A stretch of 64,000 nt of DNA from Anaerolineaceae bacterium (GTDB lineage: Bacteria; Chloroflexota; Anaerolineae; Anaerolineales; Anaerolineaceae), in NCBI GenBank assembly GCA_029975475.1, contig JARKPB010000008.1, positions 682,001-746,000 on the forward strand. The letters run 5' to 3'. Under the pieces are notes generated by a model. It did not search any database. It was not told the origin of the DNA and saw only the letters and a list, made by a program, of their open reading frames with translations. Within the stretch, counting starts at the first letter, position 1; the number at the start of each line of letters is the position of its first letter. Positions 538-18,552 of the stretch are shown here, one piece after another. Made by a program: the position numbers and the translations under genes.

Positions 538-1287
538 ATGCCCGCTGAATTTGAATTTCCATCTGCTCTGGCTGGATGCATTAACGCAACCACGAAAGTG
601 GTCGTGTTAACAGGTGCCGGGATTTCAGCCGATAGCGGTATCCCGACATTCCGCGATTCTCAAATCGGTCTGTGGAAAAATTATAAACCGCAGGAACTGG
701 CGAGTATCCGGGCGTTTGAAAAAGACCCAAAACTGGTTTGGGACTGGTATCGCTGGCGAAGGGGTTTGATCGACCGCGCAGAACCAAATCCAGCCCATTA
801 TGCGTTAAAGCAATTAGAAGAGTGCGCGCCTGAAACGACCATCATTACGCAGAATATTGATGGATTGCATCGAAAAGCGGGAACAACCCACTTAATTGAA
901 TTACACGGTAATATTCACCGGGCGCGCTGCCTGCCTGAAGATAAATCGTTGCTGACCTGGGATTACAAAGCTGATATTCCCCTCTGCCCGGATTGCGGCG
1001 GTAGACTGCGGCCGGACGTGGTCTGGTTTGGCGAGCCGCTGCCCAATGAAGAACTAGCCTATGCGGTGCGGTGCAGTCGCGAATGCGACCTATTTCTTTC
1101 AATTGGCACATCAGGACTGATCGAGCCAGCAGCAAGCCTGGCGTATGAAGCCTTGAGATGCGGCGCGAAAGTCATTGAAATCAACCTCGAAGCTACACCT
1201 CTGACGGTTTATGCAACCCACGTTTTTACTGGTCAGGCGAAATCTATTCTTCCACCCTTAATCGAGTGGATGATCACATCCCGTTGA
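538..1287 (+). CDS. cobB: Sir2-family NAD-dependent protein deacylase (CobB-like)
   Basis: Cytoplasmic enzyme removing acyl groups from lysines with NAD+, giving nicotinamide and O-acyl-ADP-ribose. The 249-residue length is typical. Visible motifs: GAGISADSGIPTFR (26-39) of the NAD site, TQNID (104-108), catalytic His123 in ELHG, and a reduced zinc module (C131, C150, C153) resembling E. coli CobB, where the first CxxC is also incomplete. A Y71-x-x-R74 pair in the position expected for class III sirtuins suggests activity on negatively charged acyl groups such as succinyl-lysine; that is inference from the motif. GAGAT about 9 bases before ATG serves as ribosome site. Its 3' end overlaps the convergent MocA-like gene by 14 bases. 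Confidence 0.9.
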   Translation: MPAEFEFPSALAGCINATTKVVVLTGAGISADSGIPTFRDSQIGLWKNYKPQELASIRAFEKDPKLVWDWYRWRRGLIDRAEPNPAHYALKQLEECAPETTIITQNIDGLHRKAGTTHLIELHGNIHRARCLPEDKSLLTWDYKADIPLCPDCGGRLRPDVVWFGEPLPNEELAYAVRCSRECDLFLSIGTSGLIEPAASLAYEALRCGAKVIEINLEATPLTVYATHVFTGQAKSILPPLIEWMITSR

Positions 1288-1891
1288 TTTCTTTCTGATA
1301 ATCTTCGGGTGTATCCAGGTCCTTGAGGATATCAGGGGTATCTACGACCAGGTATTCGATATGCTTTTCCTGGGATTGTAAATAATCCCGCATTGTCTGA
1401 TCATCACGCATGGATAAAATTTCCTGGATACATTCAGGGGCCAGCATCCAGGGATGCCCACGGCGCATTTGATAGCTGGGAATTAATATTTTCGGCTGCT
1501 TCTTGTTCCAGGCGGTGATTAAGTCCGCCACCAGGCTGGGATGTATCTGCGGTTGGTCCCCTAGCCCGATAAAAAAAGGATGGATTTTCATATCAGAACT
1601 TTCGAGATATAGCAGCCCAATTTTTAAAGAAGTAAACATTTCTGTTGTTTCAAACCTTTTATTTTGGATGACTCTGACAGTATTATTGTTTCTAAAAAGA
1701 TGTTGAAGCTCATCGTGCGCTGCGCCGCTGACGACGATAATCTGGTTCACCCCTGCCTGTTGAAATGCGCTAACGACCGTTTCAATAACGGTTGAATCTT
1801 TCCACGGCAGGATTAATTTTTGTTTACCCATTCTTTTGGATTGTCCTGCGGCTAAAATAATCGAAAAAAGTAAGTTATTGGCTACACGCAT
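1274..1891 (-). CDS. MocA-like molybdenum cofactor nucleotidyltransferase (stand-alone)
   Basis: NTP_transf_3 (GT-A fold) protein of 205 residues. The nucleotide-binding signature ILAAGQSKRMGKQKL lies at about 12-26 and a GLGDQP segment follows mid-protein, where MocA carries the metal-binding Asp. MocA enzymes transfer CMP from CTP to molybdopterin (releasing PPi) to form the MCD cofactor of xanthine-dehydrogenase-family enzymes. Last gene of the long minus-strand unit; its ATG shares one base with the stop of the upstream YqeC-MocA fusion (TAATG), so translation is probably coupled. A second MocA domain sits in that fusion, so this copy may differ in nucleotide (CTP versus GTP) or in the hydroxylase it serves. 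Confidence 0.8.
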   Translation of the reverse strand: MRVANNLLFSIILAAGQSKRMGKQKLILPWKDSTVIETVVSAFQQAGVNQIIVVSGAAHDELQHLFRNNNTVRVIQNKRFETTEMFTSLKIGLLYLESSDMKIHPFFIGLGDQPQIHPSLVADLITAWNKKQPKILIPSYQMRRGHPWMLAPECIQEILSMRDDQTMRDYLQSQEKHIEYLVVDTPDILKDLDTPEDYQKEINGM

Positions 1892-3225
1892 TATTTTCTT
1901 TCCTCTACTTCGGAATAATCAATTGGCTCGTCAATGTCCCTGAGCACTACGGGGTCGAGCCATGGTACTCTATGGATTGGCCGCCCCTTCATTACCTGCC
2001 TACCCCCTACTTCTCCCGAAAGATTGCTTAATTCGAGAAAATATTCGCGGTCAAACAATGTTGGATTCCCCCTTCTGCCGTCGAAGTCCGGTAGAATGAT
2101 CTTTCCCTTCCCTGTTTGATGTGCCTCAATCAGCGATCGGATCACCAGCGGGTTATCTAACGGCTGGTCTGCCAGCATAAATATCACCGCTCCGCAACTT
2201 CGCTTCATCACCGCGCGCATCCCGGCCGCGACGCTGCTGCCCTGCCCGCTCGACCAATCGGGATTTTGAACAATTTCGACCGGCAGACCGTTCAAGGCCG
2301 CGGCGACGCTGTCTTTTTGATATCCAACAACCGCGACGACTGACTCGCATCCCGCCAGCAGCGCCGTAGAAGCCGACAGACGCACCAGGGGCATCCCGTA
2401 CACAGGTAAAAGCTGCTTTACCTCCCCATACCGACTCGCTGCACCTGCCGCCAGAATTACTGCCGCAATTTTTTCAAACCTGGCTTTTATTGGTCTCTCT
2501 TCAGCCTGTAGCGAGGCAGCGATCACTGTGCTGTAACCGGATAACAAATTTTTGGCTATCCAGCCAGCGCTCTTCAGCTCTTCGTCCGAGTCGCATTGAT
2601 TAAGCAGCAGAACTCTTTCTGCCGCAGCGGGTATGTTCTTTAATCCGCCACCTGGATGAACAGCCCAATTAATTATTTTCTGTTCATCAATCACTTCCCC
2701 GACTGATCCGCCAGCCACCCGGGCAAATTCATCCGGCCGGTGAATCTGCCCGGATTCTATGCTTTTTCCCAGCGCGGACATTCCAGCCATCACTATCACA
2801 ATGGTGGACTGACTCGGAATGGCAGGTTCATGACTGGCAGGCGCTTTTATCGGCAGCTGCCGAGACCCATCTGCTTCGATGATGACTGGAATCTTATTCC
2901 CAGCCGAAACACCAAGCAGCGTCTGCATGGCTTTCTCACTTAAACCCTTAACCCGATCGTCCTGCACCCTTTCGCCAGTAAAAAGAACAGGGGAGCGGAG
3001 ATGAAGAAAGGGTGAAAAAAAGTCTGCGCTGGCGTCTTCCGGAACGACAATCCAGTGTTTAAATCTTTTCGCCTGACCAGTAGAGAGATGCGTCGTTGTG
3101 GTAATAAATACCGGCGGTGTAATTTCACCCGCCAATAAAAACAGGGCTGTGGTTTTTCCGCCAGCCCCAACAATGGATACAACAGATGTGCGCTCAATGT
3201 GAAGCGCGTCTGATAATTTCATCAC
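1891..3225 (-). CDS. YqeC-MocA fusion: selenium-dependent hydroxylase accessory protein plus Mo-cofactor cytidylyltransferase
   Basis: Two-domain protein of 444 residues. Residues 1-~245 match YqeC: a P-loop-like VGAGGKTT (19-26), a TTTTH segment (42-46) and EADGSR (117-122). YqeC is linked to selenium-dependent molybdenum hydroxylase maturation, but its biochemical role is unresolved. Residues ~253-444 are a MocA-type nucleotidyltransferase starting with ILAAGAASRYGEVKQ, with the conserved ADQP later. In many genomes yqeC and mocA are adjacent separate genes; here they are one chain. ATG overlaps the stop of the upstream Mo subunit by 4 bases (ATGA), supporting co-translation. Points to a matured, possibly labile-selenium-containing, Mo hydroxylase. 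Confidence 0.85.
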   Translation of the reverse strand: MMKLSDALHIERTSVVSIVGAGGKTTALFLLAGEITPPVFITTTTHLSTGQAKRFKHWIVVPEDASADFFSPFLHLRSPVLFTGERVQDDRVKGLSEKAMQTLLGVSAGNKIPVIIEADGSRQLPIKAPASHEPAIPSQSTIVIVMAGMSALGKSIESGQIHRPDEFARVAGGSVGEVIDEQKIINWAVHPGGGLKNIPAAAERVLLLNQCDSDEELKSAGWIAKNLLSGYSTVIAASLQAEERPIKARFEKIAAVILAAGAASRYGEVKQLLPVYGMPLVRLSASTALLAGCESVVAVVGYQKDSVAAALNGLPVEIVQNPDWSSGQGSSVAAGMRAVMKRSCGAVIFMLADQPLDNPLVIRSLIEAHQTGKGKIILPDFDGRRGNPTLFDREYFLELSNLSGEVGGRQVMKGRPIHRVPWLDPVVLRDIDEPIDYSEVEERK

Positions 3226-5429
3226 GGAATTTTACCCAGACCGCGCAGAACTTTTTCCGGAGTCAGAGGAAATTCATCGAACCACTTACCCGTCGCGTTC
3301 TTCACAGCCGTGATGACGGCAGGCGCAAGCGGCATATAGGGCATTTCGCCCATACCCCTGGCGCCCCAAGGGCCGATCGGATCAGCGTATTCCAAAACCA
3401 CAGGCTTTACTCGCTTTGGAATATCTAAAACGGTCGGTATCAAGTATGTCGAGAGGGTTCGTGTTTTGGTGATGCCCTGCTCCTGAATAAAGTTTTCCAG
3501 CAGTGCGTAACCCGCGGCCTGCACAATAGCCCCTTCAATTTGTCCTTCCACCTGCTGCGGATTGATCGCTTTTCCGACGTCATCCGCGCAAACAATATCC
3601 TCGAGGGTGATCTCACCGGTTTCGGGATCCACGGACACCTTCACGGCTTCAGCCACATAACCGTAAGCAAAATTTGGCTCAGATTTTCCGGTTTCAGGAT
3701 CGTACATTGAAGTTTTCGGGGGACGGTATGTGTAAGTACTTATTGCCGGCCGTTCTTCAGCCTCCCACTTTTCTAAAGCCTCCTGGGCTGCGCCGCGGAT
3801 TGAATTTCCAGCCATGAAGGTCATCCTGGATGCCGATACAGAACCAGAATTTTCTGAAAACGCGGTATCGGACGCGACCAGTTCAATCCGGTCAACTGGT
3901 ACGCCAAGGGCTTCAGCGGCCATTTGAACAAATACAGTATGGCTTCCCTGTCCAACTTCAGCGCCAGAATGCTTGAGAATAACTCGATCGATCTCCGCCT
4001 CGCCATGCAGCTCAATGGTCGCGGTGCATTGTTCAGGCGCACCAAATGAGAAACCAACATTTTTAAACGCGCAAGCCAAACCAATTCCAGTCCACTTGCC
4101 ATTAATGGCATCAACCTTTGGAGCCTGCCAGCCGCTGGCTGTTTGCGTCCAACCGGCGGTTTCAGCGCATTTTTGAACCACCTTCTTAATTGAAACCCCG
4201 CGCGGAAGCGGCGTTCCCACCGAAAGGAGCGCACCTTCATCCAGAAGGTTTCCCATGCGAAATTCAACCGGGTCCATGCCTAACTTTTCAGCCAGTTTTG
4301 ACACCTGCATTTCGGCTTCAAACGAACTTTGCGGTCCGCCAAAACCGCGGAACGCACCATTCGGGATATTGTTCGTGTAAACACCAAAGGAGTCGACCCA
4401 CACATTGGGTATTTCATAAGGACCTGTGCACATTAGATTAGCATTACCCAGCACTTTCGGCGTTGTATATGCATACGCGCCGCCGTCAGCGATGACGGTG
4501 ACTTTGGCAGCCACAATTTTCCCGTCGCGAGTGGCACCCCAGCGAGTCTGAAAAATAAACGGGTGGCGCTTATTGTGACCGATAATCGATTCTTCCCGCG
4601 TCCAGACGATCTTGACCGGACGGTCGATCCCTTTTTCTTTCAAGCGCATGACAGCAAGTGCCAAAATAATCTGCACCGACATATCTTCACGCCCGCCAAA
4701 CGCGCCGCCGATTGCCGGGTAGATCACCCGAACCTGATCTGCGGGTATATTCAAGGCGTGCGCGATTTGATCCCGATCTTTATGTGTCCACTGCCCGCCA
4801 ACGATCACGGTGATGCGCCCCTGGTCGTCATAATAAGCAACCCCGGCCTCGGGTTGTAAAAAAGCATGCTCCTGGGCTGGCGTTCGGTACTCGCCCTCAA
4901 CGATTACGTCAGCCTTCTTAAACCCTTCTTCAATATCACCCTTTCTGATACGGTAACGGGTAAAAATATTACTTCCCTTATCAGGATGCAGCAAAGGGGC
5001 GCCGTCTTTCATCGCCTCAATTGGATCATAAACACCCGGCAAATCTTCATATTCGACATCAACCAGATCGCGTCCCTTCGCGGCTGTCTCCTCATCCTCC
5101 GCGATAACCAGAGCCACCTGATCGCCTTCAAACCGCACCCGATCGGTGTATTCCTTTACACCACCGGGACCGCAAAGCACGGGCTGATCATACATACCGA
5201 GCCCATATTCATTTACCGGAACATCCCTGGCGGTCAAAACCAGGATAACACCGGGGAGGGCTTCCGCCTTGCTTGTGTCAATCTTGACGACCCGCGCATG
5301 CGGTCGCAGCGCAAATTTAACTTTCATGTGCAGCATGTCCGGTAAATAAACATCGCCGGGATATAGCGCCTGGCCTCTAACTTTCGCTTCCGCGTCTACC
5401 CGTGTTATGGACTGACCAATTATGCTCAT
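3222..5429 (-). CDS. Molybdenum hydroxylase large subunit (xanthine dehydrogenase family, Mo-pterin binding)
   Basis: 735-residue Mo-pterin subunit with both aldehyde oxidase/xanthine dehydrogenase domains and no Fe-S or FAD domain. Seen: GGAFGGRE (241-248) and GAFRGFGGPQ (358-367), the latter matching the bovine xanthine oxidase loop, and the base catalyst Glu695 in GMGEMP. E248 sits where bovine Glu802 binds the purine, but the residue matching Arg880 is Asn329 by gap-free counting, so a canonical xanthine dehydrogenase is doubtful. The CO-dehydrogenase signature (AYxCSFR) is absent. Partners are the FAD+[2Fe-2S] protein at 5812-7236 and perhaps the small membrane protein between them. Ribosome site AGAGG precedes the ATG. 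Confidence 0.9.
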   Translation of the reverse strand: MSIIGQSITRVDAEAKVRGQALYPGDVYLPDMLHMKVKFALRPHARVVKIDTSKAEALPGVILVLTARDVPVNEYGLGMYDQPVLCGPGGVKEYTDRVRFEGDQVALVIAEDEETAAKGRDLVDVEYEDLPGVYDPIEAMKDGAPLLHPDKGSNIFTRYRIRKGDIEEGFKKADVIVEGEYRTPAQEHAFLQPEAGVAYYDDQGRITVIVGGQWTHKDRDQIAHALNIPADQVRVIYPAIGGAFGGREDMSVQIILALAVMRLKEKGIDRPVKIVWTREESIIGHNKRHPFIFQTRWGATRDGKIVAAKVTVIADGGAYAYTTPKVLGNANLMCTGPYEIPNVWVDSFGVYTNNIPNGAFRGFGGPQSSFEAEMQVSKLAEKLGMDPVEFRMGNLLDEGALLSVGTPLPRGVSIKKVVQKCAETAGWTQTASGWQAPKVDAINGKWTGIGLACAFKNVGFSFGAPEQCTATIELHGEAEIDRVILKHSGAEVGQGSHTVFVQMAAEALGVPVDRIELVASDTAFSENSGSVSASRMTFMAGNSIRGAAQEALEKWEAEERPAISTYTYRPPKTSMYDPETGKSEPNFAYGYVAEAVKVSVDPETGEITLEDIVCADDVGKAINPQQVEGQIEGAIVQAAGYALLENFIQEQGITKTRTLSTYLIPTVLDIPKRVKPVVLEYADPIGPWGARGMGEMPYMPLAPAVITAVKNATGKWFDEFPLTPEKVLRGLGKIP

Positions 5430-5447: not shown

Positions 5448-5819
5448 TTAACGCGATTTCTTAATATTTTTTACCCGCGGCATGGGCATATCCGTTGGCC
5501 CGTATCTCGGTGGGCCAAAAGAACGATTGATGATGAATGTGATGAGCGCAAATACAGCGTACAAAAATAAAGCGATGACAACCGTAAAAATGGCTTTTAT
5601 TAATATCAACGGATCGCCGAATCCTTTTACCAGCAATTCGGTCGGGATTTTAAACCAGGCTTGCTTTGCATTTTCCTGTAAGATTAACAGCGCGGCAGCA
5701 AAAGCCATCGCCGGAATTAAAACCATTAACACACAGCCAATCCCGCGCCACACTGGATGAACGGTTTTCTCTGCCGGCGTTATCTTCCTTTCACTGGAGT
5801 AATTGGTATATTTACTCAT
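5448..5819 (-). CDS. Small two-helix membrane protein of unknown function
   Basis: 123 residues; two hydrophobic helices (about 27-47 and 74-97) separated by a short loop, with a polar N-terminus and a basic, proline-containing C-tail. I do not recognise a family. It lies exactly between the two subunit genes of one Mo hydroxylase, overlapping the upstream FAD+[2Fe-2S] gene by 8 bases and separated by 18 bases from the Mo subunit gene, so it is very probably co-translated with them. A membrane anchor or electron-transfer docking role is an inference from position only; no cysteines, hemes or quinone motifs are apparent. Confidence 0.72.
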   Translation of the reverse strand: MSKYTNYSSERKITPAEKTVHPVWRGIGCVLMVLIPAMAFAAALLILQENAKQAWFKIPTELLVKGFGDPLILIKAIFTVVIALFLYAVFALITFIINRSFGPPRYGPTDMPMPRVKNIKKSR

Positions 5820-7236
5820 CGGCCATCTCCCGGGCTGCTTTTTCTATGGCGGAGATAATTTTATAATATCCCGTACAGCGGCAAAGATTTCCTGTAATTG
5901 CTGCCACGATTTCATCTCTATTGGGTTTCGGTTTTTCTTCCAGTAACTTCACCGCGGACATAACAAATCCAGGCGTACAATATCCGCATTGAACTGCCCC
6001 TTCTTCTAGAAAAGCCTTTTGAACCGGGTGCAGTTGTCCTTCCTGACCTGTTACTCCCTCAATTGTTCGAACCTCGCAGCCATGAAGGCTTACCGCCGGG
6101 ATTAAACAGGACATTACCGCTGTGTGATTAACCAGCATTGTGCAGGCACCGCATTCTCCTTCTCCACAGCCTTCCTTGGATCCGGTTAACCCGGCTTCAT
6201 CGCGAAGTAAATGCAGCAAACTTTTCTGTATCCCGCGGTTAAAAGTCCGGAGTTGTCCATTCACAATCAACTGCAGCGGCTGTTTTCCATCTTTTTCAAA
6301 CACAATTGTCCGGTCTAAACCTGACGTCCAGGTATTCTTAGCGAGCGTGACAGGATCGAGATCCAATTCAGGCTTATATGAATCCTCAACTAAGAAACCC
6401 AGAGCTTTTCTTGAAAACACTTTCGCAGAATACCGGCGGTATTCCGCAGAACCGCGAAGATCAGAAATTGGGCTGGCGGCTTGCCCAATAACTTCAACCA
6501 GTTTGTCCAGATCGAGCGAGGATAGTTCTGCTCCCTCGATCATTTGCTCTGCTTCTTCACAGCGAATGATCGTCGGGGCAACAGCGCCCAGGGCAAACCA
6601 GGCGTTGCTCACCTTTTGACCGGACATCCTCAAAACAAACGCTAAATTCGTAACTGAAATTGCCTGAGCCTTCCTTAATGCTTGCTTCAGGAAGATTCCT
6701 TTATCAAATGGTTCAAGTTTCTTAAAAATAATTTCTTTAACCAGCTCGTCCGGTTCTAGTACAGATTTGCGCACTCCGGTAAAAAACTGTTTTAGCGGAA
6801 CAATTCTTTCGCCGCGTTTCGATATGAGCGTAACAGCTGCGCCTAAAGCCATTAACGGCGTGATCGTATCATTGGCTGGAGATGCGGTCACTAAATTTCC
6901 AACCAGAGTACCGCGGTTACGGATTTGCGGAGACCCTACCTGCCAGCAGGCCTGCGCCAGAGGCCAGGCTGTTTCACGGATCAATTTACTGGAAACGCAG
7001 TCATTATGCGTCACCAGGGCGCCAATGTGGATAACGCCATCCTCATCCATACAAATTTCCCGCAAAGCATTTATCCGGGAAATATCAATCAGCGTATCTA
7101 TGCCTTTCCGCATTCCCTTTTCAATCTCGAGGATAAGATCCGTGCCACCGGCGATCACCCTTGCTTTTTGTTTTTCAGCCTCAAGATAAGAAAGAGCATC
7201 TTCCAGGTTAGCAGCGAGGACATACTTATTCCACAT
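5812..7236 (-). CDS. FAD-binding + [2Fe-2S] fusion subunit of molybdenum hydroxylase
   Basis: 474 residues, domain order FAD then iron-sulfur. Residues ~1-285 are the CoxM/XdhB FAD module with AGGTD (29-33) and NRGTLVGNL (107-115). Residues ~318-474 hold both [2Fe-2S] clusters: plant-type C357, C362, C365, C377 and the four-helix cluster C417, C420, C452, C454. Moves electrons from the Mo centre through two clusters to FAD. The usual small-subunit (CoxS) gene is absent because it is fused here to the C-terminus of the FAD module, the reverse arrangement from the second hydroxylase in this unit. ATG overlaps the XdhC stop by one base (TAATG). Confidence 0.9.
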   Translation of the reverse strand: MWNKYVLAANLEDALSYLEAEKQKARVIAGGTDLILEIEKGMRKGIDTLIDISRINALREICMDEDGVIHIGALVTHNDCVSSKLIRETAWPLAQACWQVGSPQIRNRGTLVGNLVTASPANDTITPLMALGAAVTLISKRGERIVPLKQFFTGVRKSVLEPDELVKEIIFKKLEPFDKGIFLKQALRKAQAISVTNLAFVLRMSGQKVSNAWFALGAVAPTIIRCEEAEQMIEGAELSSLDLDKLVEVIGQAASPISDLRGSAEYRRYSAKVFSRKALGFLVEDSYKPELDLDPVTLAKNTWTSGLDRTIVFEKDGKQPLQLIVNGQLRTFNRGIQKSLLHLLRDEAGLTGSKEGCGEGECGACTMLVNHTAVMSCLIPAVSLHGCEVRTIEGVTGQEGQLHPVQKAFLEEGAVQCGYCTPGFVMSAVKLLEEKPKPNRDEIVAAITGNLCRCTGYYKIISAIEKAAREMADE

Positions 7237-8045
7237 TACTTTTCTCCCAATGGTTCCATCTTCATTGTATTACCGCTTGCGCCTTTCTTAACTGCCAGGA
7301 TTTCAGCCATAATGCTTACTGCGATTTCTTCCGGGGTCTCCGCCCCGATATCCATCCCGATGGGAGAATAAACTCTTGACAGCTGCTCCCTGGAAATTCC
7401 TTTCTCGAGCAAGCCTTTCTGAGTGTTGATCCAGCGGCGTTTTGACCCAATGATGCCAATGTACTTTGCGTCTGATTTGAGTAATTCGGGTAATCCCTCA
7501 ATATCAATCAATGAACCGCGGGTGACCAGGACAATATAGGTTTGACCATTAATCGGAAAAGCGGCGGCGAACTCCTTCATACCAACAGGGAAATATTCGT
7601 CTGCTTCAGGAACAATTTCCGCGTTGCAAAGGTCGGCCCGGTCATCCGATAAAACGACTTTAAACCCGAGCCATTTTGCCAGATGGGCCAGCGACTTTCC
7701 CACATGGCCAGCTCCAATGATCACCAGGACGGGTTTTGATAATATCGGTTCAACAAATATTTCCAAAGTTCCGCCGCATATTCCCGGATCCCCGCGGCCC
7801 GGATCAACCATGCTGTACCTTAGCAAGCGCGGTTTTCCCTCTTTTATGGCTTCAAGTGCTTCTGCTATGGTTCGGCTTTCGACTTCACCACCGCCGACGG
7901 TGCCGGTAAAAGTCCCATCAGGATACACAAGCATTTTACTGGTTTCGTGGCGGGGTGTAGAACCCTTCGTCTCTATAATCGTGCACAATGCACCAGACTG
8001 ATCCCTTGCCTGCAATTCAGCTACCAGTTGAAAAATCGTTTTCAT
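7236..8045 (-). CDS. xdhC: XdhC/CoxI-family molybdenum hydroxylase maturation protein
   Basis: XdhC proteins bind sulfurated molybdenum cofactor and insert it into xanthine-dehydrogenase-type apoenzymes. The 269-residue chain shows the N-terminal XdhC_CoxI domain with ETKGSTPR and GTVGGGEVE (about 25-57), a CGG near 95, and a C-terminal Rossmann-type domain with IGAGHVGKSLA (~115-125) and GIIGSKRRW (~198-206). Length is normal. It could instead be assigned to the related YqeB group, since YqeC and SsnA are in the same unit; the N-terminal domain favours XdhC. One base separates its ATG from the stop of the pyrophosphatase gene. Confidence 0.86.
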   Translation of the reverse strand: MKTIFQLVAELQARDQSGALCTIIETKGSTPRHETSKMLVYPDGTFTGTVGGGEVESRTIAEALEAIKEGKPRLLRYSMVDPGRGDPGICGGTLEIFVEPILSKPVLVIIGAGHVGKSLAHLAKWLGFKVVLSDDRADLCNAEIVPEADEYFPVGMKEFAAAFPINGQTYIVLVTRGSLIDIEGLPELLKSDAKYIGIIGSKRRWINTQKGLLEKGISREQLSRVYSPIGMDIGAETPEEIAVSIMAEILAVKKGASGNTMKMEPLGEK

Positions 8046-8046
8046 G

Positions 8047-9393
8047 TCAGCGCTCCAATAATCCTAGAACCACCGGTAATAACTGTTTCTTTCGAGAGAC
8101 TACCCCTTCTGCCAGTCGGGTGCCGTCCGGCATTGGTTTATATGGTAAATCTTCCATAATTGGAGGAGGGTTTACGGTGATCAGACGGCTGGAACCCCGG
8201 ACGACGTCGGTTACCATCAACATGGCAAAGTTTAAACCTTTAGATTCCCGAAGTTCTTCCAACGCTTTACGCAGCTCTTCCAATTTCTCGCTGACTTCGT
8301 ATAAATCCGTAACCTCTGCCTGGGCAACGGCGAAATCCAATCCGCCGGCACGATAAATCTTCATGTCACTCCGAACCACCTCTCGCGGAGCGCGCGCGCC
8401 CAGACCAGATCCTGCCAGCAATACTTTATCACCATATGTATCAATGGTCTCACCCGCCAGGGCAGAACCGCCTACAAACGCCCACCTCGCCAGGCGCTCG
8501 CCTGCCTGGCGGTCGCGTTCAGTCGTAGTCGGCGATTTTAATTTCAGCGTATCGGACAGCAGACCGGCGAGCATCATACCCGCCAGGCTCGGAGGAGCGG
8601 ACAGCCCGGAATCTTCAATTCGTTCCGAGACCAGCGTGCTGGTTGATCCGACGATATCCACCGTGAACTTGATAGGAATGTGGGTCGAAGGGTTTCCCAG
8701 CCGGTGGTGATCAAGGATTTCTATCAATTCCGCTTCATCAAGCGAACCAACCGCCTGCGAGGGCTCATTATGATCAACCAGTACCAGCTTGATGCGCGGC
8801 GGGTTTAAGATGTCGCGCTGGCGGCAAATCCCCATGTATCTTCCATTTTCATCCAGCACCCAAAACTCATCCCCTTCTTCGCGCAGCAACCGCTGAAGAA
8901 CATCCCGGATCCTTGTGCTGGCCTGAAATGCGGGGACATCGGTATCAGATGCTTCTGAACAGGGCAAAACTAGGATGTCGCTGAGACGCATTTCCTGCTG
9001 CGCGAGATGCGGTCCAACCAGCTTATTTACAAAAGTAAACATGGACCGCCCTGTGATCATTCCATACGGGGTGCCGTCCGGTTTAACTACCGGCGCTATT
9101 CCGCCAGTCTTCCCTGCGATTGACCATCCCTCACGCAATGGGCGATCGGGTGTTGTGGTATCCAGGCGGCGTGTGACGGATTCAAATCTTGGAGACGCAT
9201 CCGTTAACAGATACGGCGCATCTAACCCAAGGTGTTTAAGCACCCAGGCGGTCTGAGGGTTAACAGCCCCGGCCCGCGCGGCAACCGCATCAAGCCCATC
9301 CCTCTCTCGCAGCAGCCAGGCGTACCCCATCGCGGAAGCGATCGAGTCAGTATCCGGATTGACGTGTCCAACAACATAAATTGGTGAAGGCAT
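8047..9393 (-). CDS. ppaC: Manganese-dependent (family II) inorganic pyrophosphatase with CBS domains
   Basis: DHH-superfamily hydrolase of PPi, 448 residues. Metal-binding motifs: GHVNPDTDS near the N-terminus, VDHNE after the insert, and DHH (in ILDHHRLG). Between the first and second motif lies an insert of ~150 residues with two CBS-type repeats, as in nucleotide-regulated PPases; the DHHA2 domain closes the C-terminus. I chose ATG at 9391-9393 rather than a GTG at 9415-9417 because it places the first motif at the usual distance and avoids a 22-base overlap. It lies between two hydroxylase gene sets; its likely task is to remove PPi released by the MocA and CofC enzymes of the same unit, which is inference. 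Confidence 0.85.
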   Translation of the reverse strand: MPSPIYVVGHVNPDTDSIASAMGYAWLLRERDGLDAVAARAGAVNPQTAWVLKHLGLDAPYLLTDASPRFESVTRRLDTTTPDRPLREGWSIAGKTGGIAPVVKPDGTPYGMITGRSMFTFVNKLVGPHLAQQEMRLSDILVLPCSEASDTDVPAFQASTRIRDVLQRLLREEGDEFWVLDENGRYMGICRQRDILNPPRIKLVLVDHNEPSQAVGSLDEAELIEILDHHRLGNPSTHIPIKFTVDIVGSTSTLVSERIEDSGLSAPPSLAGMMLAGLLSDTLKLKSPTTTERDRQAGERLARWAFVGGSALAGETIDTYGDKVLLAGSGLGARAPREVVRSDMKIYRAGGLDFAVAQAEVTDLYEVSEKLEELRKALEELRESKGLNFAMLMVTDVVRGSSRLITVNPPPIMEDLPYKPMPDGTRLAEGVVSRKKQLLPVVLGLLER

Positions 9394-9395
9394 AG

Positions 9396-12371
9396 TTATT
9401 CTTTCATTGCACGCCACAGGCGTTCAGGTGTGATCGGAATGACATCAACATTTGCGCCAACCGCATTGAAAACAGCGTTGCCGACAGCCGGCGCAACTCC
9501 ATCCATTGGAATTTCAGCAACAGCTTTGACGCCGAAGGGATGACTGGGTTCGTAGGTTTGCACAAAAATTGCCTCAAGCCCAGGCATTTCGTCTGCCCGG
9601 AAGATATGATAATCGACCAGGTTTTTATCAAGCGGACGGCCCTTCTCGTCATACCGCATTTCCTCGCAGACCGCGTAGCCCAATGCCTGAGTCATTCCGC
9701 CCTCGATTTGACCGGATGCTGTCAGTGGGTTGACGATTACACCGGAATCCACCGCCATCACCAGCTGCTTGACTTCTACCTCACCTGTCTCGGTATCCAC
9801 CTCAACTTCCGCGAATTGGGCAGCGAATGGGGGCGGCGAAGAAGGAGACATATAGGAGGCAACGCCCATAATTTGTTCTTGATTATCGTGATGAAGCGCG
9901 TTGTGACCTATTTCAGACAATGTTAAAGATCGCCCATCCGGTGCCAGTGCGCAGCGGTTCTCAAGCCGAATATCATTTTCACCCAACTTCACCGTACCGG
10001 CTGAATTGAACATCGCTGCGGCCCGCTGTTTTATTTTATCAGCCACAATTTGGGCCGCCTTGACCACCGCCGTCCCGGAAATATAAGTGGTGCTGGAAGC
10101 GTATGCGCCTTTGTCAAATGGCGTGAAATCCGTATCGGAGGAATACACAAAAATATCTTCCACCGGAACACCCAGCACTTCGCCCGCCATCTGCGCCAAA
10201 ACGGTATCCGACCCAGTGCCTAAATCAGTCGCGCCGACCAGAAGAACAAAAGAACCGTCGTCCTGCATTTTGATTGAAGCGCCGCCCATATCGAGGTAAG
10301 GGATCGCCGTTCCCTGCATCACCAGCGCCGCTCCAATTCCCCGTTTCTTGGTGGGTTTATCAGCAGAATTGCGCCAGCTTTCGTTTCCAAATTTTTGATC
10401 CCAGCCAATGGCGGCTTTGCCCTGCCGAACGCATTCTTCAAGACCAACCGTATGAATGATCTCTGGCCGCGGCTCCCTGCCCTCGCTCCATGCCGTGGAG
10501 AAGGGATGTAACTCGCCTTCCCGTAAAGCATTTTTAAGCCGGAATTCTATCGGGTCAAGCCCCAGCGCGTGAGCAATTTTCTCAAGATGTCTTTCCAGCG
10601 GCCAGAATCCCTGGGGGACGCCGTAACCGCGATACGCTCCGGCTGGTGTATGGTTTGTGTAAACCACGTCAGCATAAAAACGAATGTTTGGCTGCTTGCG
10701 ATATTCGCCATCCCCGACATAAAGCGCCATGGATTTATGTCCGGTGTTGCCTGCCACTGTCAGCGCGTGGCAGCCGTATGCGCCGGTGTCACTGAGGACA
10801 TACATTTCATTAGCCGTGATGGTGCCGTCTTTTTTTACTCCGGTTTTCATGCGCGCCACCATTGGATGGCGCGATCGGGCGGCAATAAACTCTTCCTCGC
10901 GGCTGTATTCATACAGGACCGGCCGGCGAGTCGCTATGGTTAAGTGCGCGGCAACATCTTCAATTAATATTTCCTGCTTGCCCCCAAAGCCGCCGCCAAT
11001 TCTCGGTTTGATCACCCGAATCCGCTTCATGGGCAGTTTTAAGACTGGCGCAAGGATCCTGCGAACATGAAAGGGAACCTGCGTGCTGGTCTTTATAACC
11101 AGGCGGTCATCTTCATCCCAGTAGGTAAGAACCACGTGCGGCTCAATATGCGCCTGCTGAACTTTGGGCACCTCGTATTCTGCTTCAAAGATCTGGTCAG
11201 CTTCAGCAAACCCCTTTTCAACATTTCCAATATCAATCCGGATTTCCGCTGCAAGATTCCTGGCAGGGTTTGAGTCGGCAAAATTCACGTATTCCGGTTC
11301 GTCATGCAGGATGGTTTGATTGTCTAAGGCTTCTCGCGCATCCAGAATCGCCGGAAGCTCTTCGTAGGTGACTTTGATTAACGACAACGCTTTTTCAGCA
11401 ATTTCAGGTGTTTCAGCAGCCACAAACGCCACCCGGTCGCCGACATAACGCACTTTGTAATCAAGCGAAAAAGTATCCAGCGGCCCGGGGATTGGATCCG
11501 ATTGCCCCGCGGTTGAGTAAACCACCCGCGGGATATCCCTCCAGGTCAGAACGGCAGCGACACCCGGCAGCGCCTTTGCCGCGGAGGTGTCGATATCCAC
11601 AATCCGGGCATGTGCAACCGGGCTAAACAAGACCCTGGCGTAAAGCATGCCCCGCATCTCCATATCAGCCGTAAACGCCGGCTTTCCCTGAGCCAGTTTG
11701 AGCGCGTCGACTTTGATTTCAGGTTTTCCAACCTGTCGGGTGGTTTTTACGCCCGGCAAAGTCCAAATTTTTGGCATTACCCGTGTTTGTGTAAGCTGAG
11801 TGCCGCCGGACTGATCCTCAGGTGAAATGGGTTCGTTTGTCTGAAGTGGACCCAGGGAAAAGATTTCATCCTGAACACCGGACTCGCCCCGCAAAATTGC
11901 TGCTGCGCGCAGAATTGCCTGGACAGGTTTCTTGTAACCGGTGCACCTGCATAAAATTCCCGATAGCGCTTTTCGCGCATCATCCTCATTTGGATTTGGG
12001 TTTTGCCGCAGCAGTCGTAGGCTCGCCAGAAGCATCGCCGGGGTACAGTAACCGCACTGAATCGCGCCGACTTCAGCGAACGTGGTTTGCAGGACATGCA
12101 AACCTTCATTTGCGCGCCAGCCCTGCTGGGGATGTTCTCCTAGACCTTCAATGGTCTCAATGTCATGTCCGTCAGCCTGAGCAGCAAGAATGGAGCACGA
12201 ATTGACCAGCCGACCGTCCAACAGCACAGCGCACGCACCGCACTCCCCTTCTTTACAGCCGCCCCATTTCGCGCCAAACCATCCATTTTTTCTTAGAACC
12301 TGCAGAAGCGTGTCACCGGGCTGGCAATCGTATTCGTATTGCGTCTGGTTGATGCGTAGAGAGATAATCAC
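9396..12371 (-). CDS. Molybdenum hydroxylase, [2Fe-2S] + Mo-pterin fusion subunit
   Basis: 991-residue fusion. Residues 1-~155 carry both [2Fe-2S] clusters (C39, C44, C47, C59; C106, C109, C141, C143). Residues ~215-991 are the Mo-pterin part with GGGFGGKQ (459-466), GAYRGYGVPQ and a C-terminal AVAEIP containing the presumed catalytic Glu. Where bovine xanthine oxidase has Glu802, this protein has Gln466, so its substrate differs from that of the 735-residue paralogue. FAD would come from the short protein just upstream (12387-13127). Starts with GTG at 12369-12371 behind a strong GGAGGAAAA site. No CO-dehydrogenase signature. Confidence 0.9.
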   Translation of the reverse strand: MIISLRINQTQYEYDCQPGDTLLQVLRKNGWFGAKWGGCKEGECGACAVLLDGRLVNSCSILAAQADGHDIETIEGLGEHPQQGWRANEGLHVLQTTFAEVGAIQCGYCTPAMLLASLRLLRQNPNPNEDDARKALSGILCRCTGYKKPVQAILRAAAILRGESGVQDEIFSLGPLQTNEPISPEDQSGGTQLTQTRVMPKIWTLPGVKTTRQVGKPEIKVDALKLAQGKPAFTADMEMRGMLYARVLFSPVAHARIVDIDTSAAKALPGVAAVLTWRDIPRVVYSTAGQSDPIPGPLDTFSLDYKVRYVGDRVAFVAAETPEIAEKALSLIKVTYEELPAILDAREALDNQTILHDEPEYVNFADSNPARNLAAEIRIDIGNVEKGFAEADQIFEAEYEVPKVQQAHIEPHVVLTYWDEDDRLVIKTSTQVPFHVRRILAPVLKLPMKRIRVIKPRIGGGFGGKQEILIEDVAAHLTIATRRPVLYEYSREEEFIAARSRHPMVARMKTGVKKDGTITANEMYVLSDTGAYGCHALTVAGNTGHKSMALYVGDGEYRKQPNIRFYADVVYTNHTPAGAYRGYGVPQGFWPLERHLEKIAHALGLDPIEFRLKNALREGELHPFSTAWSEGREPRPEIIHTVGLEECVRQGKAAIGWDQKFGNESWRNSADKPTKKRGIGAALVMQGTAIPYLDMGGASIKMQDDGSFVLLVGATDLGTGSDTVLAQMAGEVLGVPVEDIFVYSSDTDFTPFDKGAYASSTTYISGTAVVKAAQIVADKIKQRAAAMFNSAGTVKLGENDIRLENRCALAPDGRSLTLSEIGHNALHHDNQEQIMGVASYMSPSSPPPFAAQFAEVEVDTETGEVEVKQLVMAVDSGVIVNPLTASGQIEGGMTQALGYAVCEEMRYDEKGRPLDKNLVDYHIFRADEMPGLEAIFVQTYEPSHPFGVKAVAEIPMDGVAPAVGNAVFNAVGANVDVIPITPERLWRAMKE

Positions 12372-12386: not shown

Positions 12387-13127
12387 TCACATTCCTGAGA
12401 GAATTCTTCTGAATAAGGCAACCACCGAGTCAGCCCTGTAATCCGGGCTTGCCCAGTGATCCGCAAATTGGCGGCTGGCGCTGCGCAGACCCTCTTCAAC
12501 CCCTTCTGTTCCATTGCCGTCCGCGATTAACATGGGTTTTGCAGATGAACTCCCCATGACTACACGCAGTCTCCCGGATTTCCATCGAGCGACGCTTACC
12601 GACAAGAAAGGCACATCCAGCGGAGAGCGCTCAACAGATTCGACCCGTATTTCAACGCTGGCGGGCAGCCGAATTTCGCTTAATAGAAGCCCGCTGTTCC
12701 CCATTGCCAGCCAATCACCGTAAGACACACTGGCCGCGCCTGGTTCCCAGATGAGAAGCGCGTCCGCTGCCAGCGCAGCGCAGGCGAACAACGAGGTGCC
12801 GCTCGCAGATAGAAGGGTCCCGCCAGCTGTTGCGGTTTGACGGAGATTGATTGTTCCCTCTCTCCTCAAGGCGAGCCGGTAGGCCTCTGGTAATCCATGC
12901 CAGCTTTCTATATCCGCGAGCCTGGCACCGGCGCCAATCGTGAATCCATCCTGAGAACTGGAAAATGAATCCAGATGCAGGGCTTGAATATCCACAACTT
13001 CTATTGGCTCCCCGCGATATTGGCTTAAACGGGTTCCGCCAGCAAGAACAACCGTTTTCGGCTGTTTTCGAGATAGCAGTGATAAAGCTAGCTCTTTGGT
13101 ATCGGGCCTGTGGTACTGGGTAATCAT
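12387..13127 (-). CDS. Divergent FAD-binding subunit of molybdenum hydroxylase
   Basis: 246 residues, against ~285 for ordinary CoxM/XdhB subunits. The first FAD motif is recognisable as AGGTRL (29-34; usual form AGGTDL) and the second as NLRQTATAGGTLL (~112-124; usual form IRN.GT.GGN). The C-terminal CO-dehydrogenase flavoprotein domain appears shortened. It precedes the [2Fe-2S]+Mo fusion by 15 bases, so it is most likely that enzyme's electron-exit subunit. Weakening of both FAD motifs raises the possibility that it binds flavin poorly, or passes electrons to something other than NAD+. Confidence 0.78.
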   Translation of the reverse strand: MITQYHRPDTKELALSLLSRKQPKTVVLAGGTRLSQYRGEPIEVVDIQALHLDSFSSSQDGFTIGAGARLADIESWHGLPEAYRLALRREGTINLRQTATAGGTLLSASGTSLFACAALAADALLIWEPGAASVSYGDWLAMGNSGLLLSEIRLPASVEIRVESVERSPLDVPFLSVSVARWKSGRLRVVMGSSSAKPMLIADGNGTEGVEEGLRSASRQFADHWASPDYRADSVVALFRRILSGM

Positions 13128-13138: not shown

Positions 13139-14137
13139 CTATTTTTGCGCGAAAGTATCAATTAATAATTTTACATCACCAGCAACCGGGTACAAAATCG
13201 GGCATGTACAACCATGTTTTTTATATTCCTCAACCTTCGCCCGGGCTTCAGCCGGTGTGCCAGAAGCCGTAATGCGCATAATTAAATCTTCTGGCACCAG
13301 ATGCTTTGCTTTCTGAATCTGCTCATGGGTCGCTGGCCATCCCAGGATGGATTGAATTTTCTCAACAATTTCCATAGAGACATTTGACGCCTTCGCGATA
13401 TGCGGCTGCTGGGCCAGATACTGGGTCAGTAATTCGCGGGCGAAATCAATGGCCCGGTCATGATCTTCATCAACACTGCAAACAACCAGTTGGGGCCGGT
13501 CAATTTGGTCCAGAGTTTTTCCTGCTTTTTTAGCGCCGGCTTGCAGCAATTCCAGCGCTCGTTCGTTATAATCGGGCGAGACGCAGTAGTTCAAAACGAC
13601 GCCGTCACATATTTCTCCGGTTAGTTCCATCATCTGGTCGCCAGTCGCGCCGATATAAATTGGCACGTTGCGCGGTTCGCGCCTTCCATGCACCACATCC
13701 AGTTCAATCCCATTGACGTGGATAAATTCGCCATCAAACGTTACCCGCTCCATCGCCAGCAGCCGCCGCATCACAAGCACAGTCTCCTTCATAGCGGTCA
13801 GCGGCTTTCGCCGATCAATACCAACATTCTTTGCCAGCGGATCCCACCATGCGCCAATGCCGCAGATAATCCGGTTTGGCGCCAGGTCATCCAGTGTCAG
13901 GAACGTCGATGCCAGCAGCCCAATATTCCGGGTCCAATTATTAATGACCCCCGAGCCGATTTTTATTTTTTCTGTGACAGCCGCATAGGCAGCCATAGGA
14001 ACAATCGCATCTCTAACCAGGCGGCTTTCTGCCTGCCAGATGGCTTCAAACCCTCTTTCTTCCGCGTATCGCGCGTAGTCAAGACCATCCCTTAAGTCAT
14101 GGGCATCTTGCAGATAAAGGGCAACTCGTTCGGTCAT
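13139..14137 (-). CDS. LLM-class (luciferase-like) F420-dependent oxidoreductase
   Basis: 332-residue TIM-barrel protein of the bacterial luciferase superfamily, related to methylenetetrahydromethanopterin reductase and F420-dependent glucose-6-phosphate dehydrogenase. Recognisable parts: the N-terminal barrel strand with [21 protein letters not shown], and CGIGAWWDP around 96-104, then PIYIGATG. Such proteins bind F420 or FMN; F420 is favoured because cofC, cofD, cofE and the F420:NADP oxidoreductase are immediately upstream. Start set at ATG 14135-14137, which has GGAGG at ideal spacing, not at the TTG 12 bases earlier. Substrate unknown; a hydride donor or acceptor role beside the Mo hydroxylases is an inference. 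Confidence 0.85.
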
Positions 14138-14149
14138 TTTAGCCTCCAA

Positions 14150-14779
14150 TTATTGGGTCGCAAATACAGAATTGGGCATCGCTTTTTTGATCATGAACAG
14201 GTCATCGGGCAAATCGAGGTCAAAGGACAGCGCCTCATTTTCAAAAATTGTGAGATTTAAACCCTTTTTCTGGGCATACATCACGTGCCTTGCAAATGAA
14301 TGCGGGCCAAAAAAGTATGGGATTGCCCCAGGAGGAGACACGACCAGAGCATTTGTCCCGTCCCTACGGTGATCCGGGGTAATAATTACTCCGTCAGGGA
14401 CTGATGAGCGGCAGTCAATTAATGCGTTAACAGCCTCACGGGTAAGCAATGGCAGGTCAGCGGGAAGGATCATGATCTCTTCCACGCCATCAGCCTGTAA
14501 TTCCAGAGTCGCCTGATGCAGGGCAGCATTTAACCCTTGAGGATTCCTTTCGATAATCCAGGTAACCGGTGAATGAATTTCACCGCATGCGGCCGATTCT
14601 GCCCTTTCAACGCTAACCACAGCGATTCCTTGTATCGACTTTATCTGATTCAGAACACGCATGGTATTCTGGAATAGCGTCCGGCTGATTTCATAGCGCT
14701 CCACGTCCGTAAGAATAGAACGAAGGCGGGTCTTCGAATCAGAAAATGGTTTGATAGGAACCAGAGCCCATCGAATCAT
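14150..14779 (-). CDS. cofC: CofC: 2-phospho-L-lactate (or PEP) guanylyltransferase
   Basis: Nucleotidyltransferase of coenzyme F420 synthesis that joins GMP from GTP to 2-phospho-L-lactate or phosphoenolpyruvate, releasing PPi. 209 residues, normal length. Seen: N-terminal WALVPIKPFSDSKTRL (4-19), equivalent to the P-loop-like nucleotide site; ILPADLPLL (~101-109) with the metal-binding Asp; and the late SFDLDLPDDL segment. The sequence does not tell which three-carbon acid is used. The ATG overlaps the cofD stop by 4 bases (ATGA). Confidence 0.92.
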   Translation of the reverse strand: MIRWALVPIKPFSDSKTRLRSILTDVERYEISRTLFQNTMRVLNQIKSIQGIAVVSVERAESAACGEIHSPVTWIIERNPQGLNAALHQATLELQADGVEEIMILPADLPLLTREAVNALIDCRSSVPDGVIITPDHRRDGTNALVVSPPGAIPYFFGPHSFARHVMYAQKKGLNLTIFENEALSFDLDLPDDLFMIKKAMPNSVFATQ

Positions 14780-15726
14780 CGATTAATTCCCAGAGCAAAA
14801 CTGATCACAAACCTGGCCAGTGTTTCCCGATCGCTTGCTGAACGCATTATGGTATTGGTATCCACTGTCATTATACCCCAGCGCGATTTGATCCGATTTG
14901 CGCAAGCTGCATCCTCGGTATCAATGATGAAATGACTGATTAATTCATGATAGGTATTCGCAACCGCCTCTGCAGATGGAGTGATGCCCATTTCCTGATA
15001 CATTTTTGCAGCCGGGCCCTTGATGGTTTTGCCGCTAACAATCGGGGAGACAGCTGCGATCGTTTTTCCCGTCAAAGCTTCTTTATATCCAGGAATTGCC
15101 AGAATAGGCCCAATGCTGACCCAGGGATTAGATGGGCAGATAACGATCAGATCCGCAGCGCGGATTGCTTCGATCGCAGCCAGAAGAGGCTTCGCCGTTT
15201 CAGCATTATGAAAAACAAACCCGCTGACTTCAGGTTCGCACTGCAACCGCACAAAGTATTCCTGGAAATCCAAGATTTTCTGCCCTCTGGTAATAACTTT
15301 TGTCTGAACCGGTTCGTTACACATTGGCAAAACACCCGGTTTTACCCCGAATGCTCGCGTCTGCCAGGTGGTAATGGCTTCCAAAGATTCGCCGCTGTGC
15401 TTTCGTCTTGTTCGCTCAAGATGCCAAGCCAGATCAAGATCGCCCAGGCGAAACCAGGCTTCGCTCCCCAGGCGAATTCGCTCTTCATGCACTCGCCAGC
15501 TCTCATCTGCTCTGCCCCATCCAGTTGTGGGATTGGCAATTCCTGCCAGCGTGTACACCATCGTATCAATATCAGGGCAAATATACAAACCGCAATATTC
15601 AAAATCATCGCCGGTGTTGACGATGATTTTCAGCTGCTCTGACGGCAAGACCCTCGCGAGTCCATCAGCTAATTTAGCCCCGCCAACACCGCCGGCGAGA
15701 GCAACAATTTGCAAATTCTGATCCAT
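14776..15726 (-). CDS. cofD: CofD: 2-phospho-L-lactate transferase (F420-0 synthesis)
   Basis: Transfers the phospholactyl (or enolpyruvyl) group from the CofC product to the riboflavin-like deazaflavin FO, giving F420-0. 316 residues, normal length. Characteristic N-terminal ALAGGVGGAKLADGL (9-23), NTGDD (37-41) and CPDIDTMVYTLAG (50-62), which build the FO and GDP sites. Lies between cofE (9 bases upstream) and cofC (4-base overlap). The FO synthase genes cofG/cofH (fbiC) are not in this window and must be elsewhere for the pathway to work. Confidence 0.94.
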   Translation of the reverse strand: MDQNLQIVALAGGVGGAKLADGLARVLPSEQLKIIVNTGDDFEYCGLYICPDIDTMVYTLAGIANPTTGWGRADESWRVHEERIRLGSEAWFRLGDLDLAWHLERTRRKHSGESLEAITTWQTRAFGVKPGVLPMCNEPVQTKVITRGQKILDFQEYFVRLQCEPEVSGFVFHNAETAKPLLAAIEAIRAADLIVICPSNPWVSIGPILAIPGYKEALTGKTIAAVSPIVSGKTIKGPAAKMYQEMGITPSAEAVANTYHELISHFIIDTEDAACANRIKSRWGIMTVDTNTIMRSASDRETLARFVISFALGINR

Positions 15727-15735: not shown

Positions 15736-16509
15736 CTACCGGAATAAATCCATATCTTTTGGGCGTACCAACTCTTGAACGGATCCGCTCGAAAGCGGAT
15801 ACGGATAGCCGCGCGCCAGAACAGCCGGGATGCGTTCGGCCGCCTGTCCCATGATCAGAGATGCTGCGCCAGCCAGCTCGTCTGCGGCAGCAACCTGTGT
15901 GATCCGCAATTTATACCCGTAAATGTCTTCCCATCCACGCAAATCTACCAGCGCGTGGAAACCGGCGATGCCAATCGTCGTGCCCACCGTGCCCAGCCGC
16001 CATGCTCTTCCGTGCGAATCTATGATTAATACACCGATAATTTTGCCGGTCTCTTTTTCTATTCTTTCTTTGATTGAATTTGCCGACCCGTCAGGATCAA
16101 CCGGCAGCAGTAAAACATAATCATCACCAGTGCCCTCGGGGCCAGAGACGTTGGAATGATCGATCCCGGCGTTGGCACAGACAAAACCCAGTTTATGCCG
16201 AACGATCAAGGTCCCCGGCCGGGTTCTTAACACTTCTGCGCTTTCCCTCAGGACCAGTTCAACAAAGGCAGGATCTTTTTCAGTGGTTTCGGCGATTCTT
16301 CTCGCTTCGGCGGAAGGCTCAATTTCGCTCAATTTATAAATTCGCCCCTCAGCTTTGGAAACGATTTTTTGAGCAAGCACCAGAATATCGCCGTCCTCAA
16401 TACGCAGGTTATTTTCTGTCAGAACGCGCAGTAAAAGACCGGGCAAATCGTCTCCCGGTTTTATCATGGGTAATCCATTCAGCGGAAATAGCTGCAAAGG
16501 GACAGCCAT
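15736..16509 (-). CDS. cofE: CofE: coenzyme F420-0:L-glutamate ligase
   Basis: GTP-dependent ligase adding the gamma-linked glutamate tail to F420-0. 257 residues; begins with LFPLNGLPMIKPGDDL, has ILVLAQKIVSKAEGR (~44-58), which is diagnostic, and RPGTLIVRHKLGFVCANAGID in the middle with the metal and nucleotide ligands. It is the short archaeal-type CofE, without the C-terminal FMN reductase domain found in actinobacterial FbiB. I use ATG at 16507-16509: AAGGGA precedes it and it clears the upstream stop, while the longer frame would overlap the neighbour by 50 bases. Confidence 0.93.
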   Translation of the reverse strand: MAVPLQLFPLNGLPMIKPGDDLPGLLLRVLTENNLRIEDGDILVLAQKIVSKAEGRIYKLSEIEPSAEARRIAETTEKDPAFVELVLRESAEVLRTRPGTLIVRHKLGFVCANAGIDHSNVSGPEGTGDDYVLLLPVDPDGSANSIKERIEKETGKIIGVLIIDSHGRAWRLGTVGTTIGIAGFHALVDLRGWEDIYGYKLRITQVAAADELAGAASLIMGQAAERIPAVLARGYPYPLSSGSVQELVRPKDMDLFR

Positions 16510-16513
16510 CGGA

Positions 16514-18526: not shown

Positions 18527-18552
18527 GCCGACCTCCTGGTGGGTTTTCAAGT

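Follow-up and report, generated by a model that had tools for sequence, protein, structure and literature searches.

CBS-domain-containing family II inorganic pyrophosphatases (CBS-PPases) are, according to the cited parts of PMC11172384, inhibited by AMP and ADP and activated by ATP, and members of this group without a DRTGG domain have been published (cited parts of PMC7226116 and PMC11172384). Those of Eggerthella lenta and Ethanoligenens harbinense, in the portion of PMC7226116 used here, likewise show the arrangement DHH-CBS-CBS-DHH-DHHA2 without DRTGG that we find in the protein described below. The CBS-PPases of Clostridium perfringens and Desulfitobacterium hafniense (3l31; same parts of PMC11172384) have the same catalytic domains but carry a DRTGG domain, which our protein lacks. 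The canonical family II PPases of Bacillus subtilis (1k23 and 1wpm) and Streptococcus mutans (1i74) match it in catalytic residues and in fold (Z up to 37.7, 299 residues aligned), but are without its CBS insert of ~130 residues. Methanosaeta thermophila also has a single soluble family II PPase with a CBS sequence, and in the excerpt of PMC3426162 relied on here this CBS-containing type II enzyme is described as uninhibited by either AMP or ADP, which may serve, by analogy, as a warning that CBS domains do not prove regulation. The same excerpt gives M. thermophila as lacking a membrane PPase, whereas the genome studied here has one.

We here analyze a CBS-PPase gene in a window of 64,000 nucleotides (the whole stretch of DNA that was examined) from an Anaerolineaceae bacterium (order Anaerolineales, phylum Chloroflexota; GCA_029975475.1, contig JARKPB010000008.1, positions 682,001 to 746,000), the assembly being 98.9% complete in 20 contigs. 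Its context is a molybdenum-hydroxylase/F420 operon; the comparison with the Eggerthella and Ethanoligenens enzymes concerns the proteins. The protein is an addition to the DRTGG-less CBS-PPases, a known group, and its context is lineage-specific. Literature searches found no description of a CBS-PPase in a molybdenum-hydroxylase/F420 operon, and no paper that brings a family II pyrophosphatase together with xanthine dehydrogenase in an operon, or F420 with xanthine dehydrogenase in Anaerolineae.

The PPase gene and its operon

The PPase gene begins with ATG at position 9393 and ends with TGA at 8047-8049, and its reading frame looks intact, with the catalytic residues present. It belongs to a run of 15 genes on the same strand, which opens with the SsnA-type gene (start 18562) and closes with the stand-alone MocA-like gene (end 1274); adjacent genes overlap slightly or lie no more than 18 nt apart (Table 1). 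Within this run it lies 2 nt from the upstream molybdenum-hydroxylase gene and 1 nt from xdhC, its immediate downstream neighbor, with hydroxylase subunits encoded on both sides. The original prediction of a CBS-containing family II PPase between hydroxylase genes is confirmed: the coordinates are exact, Pfam and the predicted fold agree, and the flanking subunits are as described.

Table 1. Genes of the operon containing the PPase gene, with window coordinates and the evidence for each assignment
Feature	Position	Strand	Evidence
CBS-domain family II inorganic pyrophosphatase, 448 aa	8047..9393	-	Pfam, PDB profile search, AlphaFold model and structural alignment, 36-sequence alignment
Molybdenum hydroxylase, [2Fe-2S] and Mo-binding fusion, 991 aa, directly upstream of PPase	9396..12371	-	Pfam, NCBIfam
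XdhC family molybdenum-hydroxylase maturation factor, directly downstream of PPase	7236..8045	-	PF13478, PF02625
FAD-binding and [2Fe-2S] hydroxylase subunit (fusion)	5812..7236	-	Pfam
123-aa protein, no Pfam/NCBIfam match	5448..5819	-	tblastn: same place in many relatives
Second molybdenum hydroxylase Mo-binding subunit	3222..5429	-	Pfam, NCBIfam
YqeC fused to MocA-like nucleotidyltransferase (predicted PPi-releasing)	1891..3225	-	TIGR03172 above cut-off; TIGR03310 138.0 bits, below cut-off 186.45
Stand-alone MocA-like nucleotidyltransferase (predicted PPi-releasing)	1274..1891	-	PF12804; TIGR03310 166.1 bits, below cut-off 186.45
FAD-binding hydroxylase subunit	12387..13127	-	PF00941
LLM-class luciferase-like oxidoreductase, probably F420-dependent	13139..14149	-	PF00296; top NCBIfam hits belong to F420 families, none of those shown reaching its cut-off
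CofC, 2-phospho-L-lactate guanylyltransferase (PPi-releasing)	14150..14779	-	TIGR03552 137.7 against cut-off 105
CofD	14776..15726	-	TIGR01819 above cut-off
CofE, start codon uncertain	15736..16563	-	TIGR01916 above cut-off
NADPH-dependent F420 reductase (npdG)	16514..17173	-	TIGR01915 above cut-off
SsnA-type aminohydrolase	17192..18562	-	TIGR03314 above cut-off

The claim that the same unit encodes three PPi-releasing domains stands as far as sequence families go, and for CofC it stands above the family cut-off, but both members of the MocA pair, though strong matches to TIGR03310, fall below its cut-off. Both MocA-like domains are NTP_transf_3 domains in Pfam, and their identity as MocA is likely. 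The 123-aa protein encoded between hydroxylase subunits (5448-5819) shows, by eye, two hydrophobic stretches.

Several genes point to a selenium–molybdenum side of the cluster. YqeC (TIGR03172) and SsnA (TIGR03314) exceed their cut-offs within the unit (window 1274-18562), and so do YqeB (TIGR03309; C18:594587-595351) and SelD (TIGR00476; C10:43190-44125) elsewhere in the genome, so that all four members of the gene set sought as a mark of a selenium-dependent molybdenum hydroxylase cluster are present. The SelD gene has one in-frame TGA and is possibly that of a selenocysteine-containing SelD. In the part of PMC2276186 cited here, genes for YqeC, SsnA and YgfJ (TIGR03310) accompany selenium-dependent molybdenum hydroxylases. 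Because YqeC, SsnA, YgfJ-type, YqeB and SelD genes are present, the hydroxylases of the window are possibly selenium-dependent, and purines are plausible substrates. In five related loci (L035:16248-17063, also L034, L036, L042 and L047) a gene of ~270 aa lies between the second hydroxylase subunit and YqeC-MocA; the L035 copy has no Pfam match, and the gene is absent from that place in the window. We suspect it, from its sequence, to be YqeB.

Domain structure and fold of the PPase

The 448 residues are arranged as DHH part 1 (~1-66), a CBS pair (~66-198), DHH part 2 and DHHA2 (~328-443). Pfam detects DHH (PF01368, 60.8 bits) and DHHA2 (PF02833, 72.1 bits), both above cut-off, and one significant CBS domain, the second being supported by the predicted fold and by MJ1225, a CBS-pair protein that matches at 73-195 in a profile search. 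No DRTGG domain was matched in Pfam and the insert is only ~130 residues long, a predicted layout that places the protein in the DRTGG-less group of CBS-PPases. NCBIfam model NF011449 (451 positions) matches at 5-447 with 278.1 bits against a cut-off of 411. A profile of 36 sequences searched against the PDB matched solved family II PPases with a best E of 1.1e-67. The AlphaFold model has a mean pLDDT of 87.0, with residues 232-246 below 50, and superimposes on 1i74 with Z 37.7 and rmsd 2.2; the nine best rows, all family II PPases, align over the full length at 30-37% identity. The insert (66-195) superimposes on the CBS pair of the C. perfringens structure 3l31 with Z 14.3 and rmsd 1.8 over 119 residues, while phmmer with the CBS region as sole query did not place this regulatory structure among its matches at E up to 10.

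In the 36-row alignment, whose rows were chosen by homology alone, H10, D14, D16, D207, H229, H230, D281, K345, R434 and K435 are invariant. We take these to be the catalytic residues, the correspondence with the B. subtilis enzyme being taken from an alignment. In a larger alignment of 112 rows, GHxNPD and DHHR were required for a row to be chosen, which makes their invariance there uninformative, and DHN and SRK are invariant. In these 112 sequences the first CBS domain mostly reads G-h-h-[T/N]-G-x-S and the second G-[I/V]-[C/A]-R-Q-R-[D/E], so that each agrees only in part with the ribose-phosphate consensus G-h-h-S/T-x-x-D/N of PMC11172384 (as stated in the part cited). From these features the window PPase is predicted to hydrolyze PPi, and by analogy with characterized CBS-PPases it may be under nucleotide control through its CBS pair.

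Conservation of the PPase locus

Homologous loci were found in 157 relatives, and the best 80 loci from named genomes were retained, the nearest named ones being from Anaerolinea and Longilinea. In 68 of the 80, the PPase gene has cluster neighbors on its own strand, namely xdhC downstream, the hydroxylase fusion or LLM gene upstream, or both, however far away within flanks of up to 10 kb. The fusion lies upstream in 55 loci (no more than 250 nt away in 30 of them) and xdhC downstream in 61 (no more than 250 nt away in 41). Four loci show none of hydroxylase fusion, LLM or xdhC in 10 kb on each side, and in the remaining eight a nearby contig end leaves linkage undecidable. At the level of genomes, DHHA2 was found in 58 of 121 relatives, and 54 of 56 examined genomes (window genome included; G078 and G115 left out) have a cluster gene within 5 kb of the CBS-PPase, the two without being G002 and G119. 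In 48 of the other 53 linked genomes, one of four cluster genes is at most 250 nt from the PPase gene. The linkage between PPase and cluster within the order is therefore real, and the suggestion to compare homologue neighborhoods is answered in two ways: homologues sit in the same place in these 54 genomes and 68 named loci, but elsewhere outside the order, as detailed below.

The other neighbors are less constant. In other lineages, unrelated HD/PAS, AAA-cyclase, M16 peptidase, band 7 and DNA methylase genes occur around or between hydroxylase, PPase and xdhC, as seen in one scanned representative of each type. In many other loci the PPase gene stands with hydroxylase and xdhC, and no cof genes were seen within the examined flanks. 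Twelve genomes (G008, G014, G016, G025, G028, G031, G047, G054, G055, G063, G067 and G095) keep the PPase gene directly after LLM and before xdhC or the FAD/FeS gene, with the hydroxylase fusion missing there. A PPase tree of 63 rows shows three changes of linkage among those labeled linked (36) or unlinked (17), the direction of change not being readable. Locus L040, labeled 'Chlorobiaceae bacterium', is identical in cluster layout and coordinates to L044, a Chloroflexi contig, and probably comes from a misassigned or misbinned genome.

Clusters without the PPase also exist. Cluster loci were fetched from 25 of the 63 genomes in which DHHA2 had no match; they were chosen for a close hydroxylase relative, and in 24 of them the PPase is absent from the fetched stretch (19 with full-length family I PPase in the genome and five without). 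The exception, G023, holds a truncated CBS-PPase where its contig ends. Both hydroxylase fusion and xdhC are present in 21 of the 24, separated by 16-232 nt; of the other three, G041 gave no xdhC match, and in G089 and G051 the contig breaks off at the hydroxylase gene. Constant presence of the PPase in the cluster, as expected of a dedicated enzyme, is not what these loci show.

Outside the order, DHHA2 was searched for in 400 genomes of the phylum and found in 80, of which 11 belong to the class but not the order and 39 lie further out. We fetched 20 loci, all 11 of the former and nine of the latter; 13 encode proteins 48-63% identical to the window PPase, and seven proteins 29-36% identical over part of it. 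None of the 20 has hydroxylase fusion, XdhC, LLM or FAD/FeS genes near the PPase gene, some of the flanks being short. One of them, L155, has an SsnA-like gene ~5.6 kb from the PPase gene on the opposite strand.

Other pyrophosphatases in the genome and among relatives

Whether the genome has another PPase, which the original prediction had proposed to check, receives a divided answer: no other family I or II enzyme was found, and there is a membrane PPase. The window PPase is the only DHHA2 protein of the genome and no family I PPase was detected, i.e. the separate general soluble PPase that a dedicated enzyme would presuppose was not seen (zero family I, one DHHA2). The single membrane PPase gene is located at C18:748079-750202, ~2 kb outside the window. 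The PpaX model was applied to look for family III (HAD) PPases: of its 11 matches to HAD-like proteins none exceeded the cut-off, but neither did any in 14 control genomes, B. subtilis included, which makes the result uninformative, and a family III enzyme may be present. The outcome named beforehand as fatal to a dedicated PPase, namely that this was the only PPase and that homologues were usually elsewhere, is half of what we observe: it is the sole family I/II PPase detected, yet a membrane PPase is present and close homologues are in the same place.

CBS-PPase and family I PPase nearly exclude one another among the relatives. Of 58 relatives with a CBS-PPase, two have a full-length family I PPase, as against 31 of the 63 lacking a CBS-PPase (Fisher p 5.5e-9); the figures are 4/58 and 32/63 when partial genes are included (p 8.0e-8), and 2/45 and 25/44 (full-length genes) among genomes at least 90% complete (p 3.2e-8). 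When every PF00719 match is counted the figures are 10/58 and 34/63 (p 2.9e-5), or 10/59 and 34/62 (p 2.4e-5) with G023 moved to the CBS side. The 44 relatives with a PF00719 match comprise 33 with full-length genes, three with truncated or split ones (G094, G116 and G014) and eight with weak matches only. The weak matches over cut-off (G011, G061, G021, G050, G065, G087, G109 and G078) lie, in at least five cases, in frames of ~480-500 aa, and are perhaps parts of a larger protein with a PPase-like domain. The Fisher tests ignore kinship. On a tree of cluster proteins (72 rows, 12 of which contain only a quarter of the columns), CBS-PPase and family I PPase change 11 times each, and a test on independent pairs (family I with partial genes included; n=7, of which ~4.2 change in opposite directions, 0.5 in the same way and 2.4 show no difference) is not significant, with a median p of 0.219 and a range of 0.0625-0.688.

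Neither DHHA2 nor a full or partial family I gene was found in 31 of the 121 genomes, many relatives being incomplete metagenome assemblies; these 31 include G023 with its truncated CBS-PPase, and 27 of them have a membrane PPase. Because these 31 show neither family, a soluble family I/II PPase is not indispensable in the group. The membrane PPase is found in 110 of the 121 genomes and in 52 of the 58 with a CBS-PPase, and therefore its presence does not discriminate. The six CBS-PPase genomes in which it was not found (65-96% complete) show no full or partial family I gene either, one of them (G109) having the weak PF00719 match. In G058 (C55), G041 (C15), G007 (C35) and G069 (C26) the genes for the family I PPase and the membrane PPase are ~7 kb apart.

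Discussion

We consider it likely that the window PPase is the cell's general soluble PPase, long lodged in this operon and exchangeable for a family I enzyme, and it is probably the main soluble pyrophosphatase of the bacterium. Its substrate would be the PPi shared throughout the cytosol, supplied mainly by tRNA charging and polymer synthesis and only to a small extent by CofC and the MocA-like enzymes. Its gene would have become lodged in the molybdenum-hydroxylase/F420 operon early in the lineage and would then have been kept and translated from there; where a lineage has a family I PPase, the CBS-PPase would be dispensable and would usually be missing from the operon. By analogy with characterized CBS-PPases, AMP and ADP would slow the enzyme and ATP would speed it, such that at low energy a slowed PPase would leave more PPi for the membrane PPase. 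The direction of loss or gain and this sharing of PPi are what we infer, the near-exclusion of the two soluble families being what is seen. What counts against a general PPase is that a linkage in 54 of 56 genomes, maintained despite the turnover of other neighbors, exceeds what is expected for a gene without a tie to the cluster; the 31 genomes with neither soluble family and the lack of significance on independent pairs also weigh on this side.

It could also be that the enzyme is of the housekeeping type but that its placement is selected, for co-expression with purine and molybdenum-hydroxylase metabolism by way of adenylate/purine status or of a rising PPi flux. The persistence of the linkage over deep divergence while other neighbors change speaks for this, as do the mere three linkage changes among the labeled rows of the PPase tree, and SsnA and YqeC in the unit with YqeB and SelD in the genome, which point to selenium-dependent molybdenum hydroxylases. 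Many relatives, however, retain the cluster genes without the PPase, and the inertia of a tight operon that includes a needed gene gives the same pattern, so that we regard selected placement as unlikely. The operon position itself suggests that the PPase is co-expressed with its neighbors, selection and inertia not being separable from sequence.

The original prediction had argued for a dedicated rather than housekeeping PPase, which would clear PPi locally for the CofC and MocA-like steps of the unit. The tight operon shared with three PPi-releasing domains and the linkage in most examined genomes and named loci would fit such a role, and the removal of PPi would hold as favoring the CofC and MocA reactions, but this is ordinary chemistry that is true for any soluble PPase. 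Against it stand the lack of another family I/II PPase in the genome, the absence of the PPase tracking the presence of family I, the 24 of 25 fetched cluster loci (from genomes without a DHHA2 match) that do without it, and the many loci that keep PPase, hydroxylase and xdhC with no cof genes seen within the flanks. Nor is dedication supported by the 12 genomes that keep the PPase where the adjacent hydroxylase fusion is missing. Moreover, PPi diffuses freely and the flux through the CofC and MocA-like cofactor steps is small. As the main reading, dedication is rejected because of the co-occurrence pattern with family I, the PPase-less clusters and the homologues located elsewhere in the 20 loci outside the order, and we hold it to be quite improbable. 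That the protein is no PPase at all and is instead a DHH-family phosphoesterase or exopolyphosphatase-like enzyme with another substrate is most improbable and is dismissed on catalytic residues and fold. In its favor, the DHH family also contains exopolyphosphatase, nanoRNases and c-di-AMP phosphodiesterases, the alignment with the yeast exopolyphosphatase reaches Z 25.5, and every NCBIfam PPase model matched stays below its cut-off. Against it, the DHH and SRKKQ motifs and the lysine of DHHA2 vary little or not at all in the 36 sequences, and family II PPases align at Z 33-38 with 30-37% identity, compared with 17% identity for the exopolyphosphatase and Z 15-17 for NrnA/PDE-type proteins.

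A more far-reaching proposal, speculative and unlikely to hold as a whole, would be that an old and stable operon position, together with the CBS sensor, wires the order's only soluble family I/II PPase to a selenium/molybdenum purine-hydroxylase and F420 program, in which adenylate status would set how far PPi is burned or used by the membrane PPase during purine catabolism. No such link between PPi or adenylate and molybdenum hydroxylases was found in the literature searched. If the placement of the gene is selected, PPi turnover and adenylate sensing would be tied to molybdenum-hydroxylase metabolism in a little-cultured group. As the relatives without the PPase show, its presence at this site is not a requirement of the operon, and the locus cautions that operon position is not dedication: a housekeeping-type enzyme can stay in a specialized operon across much of an order.
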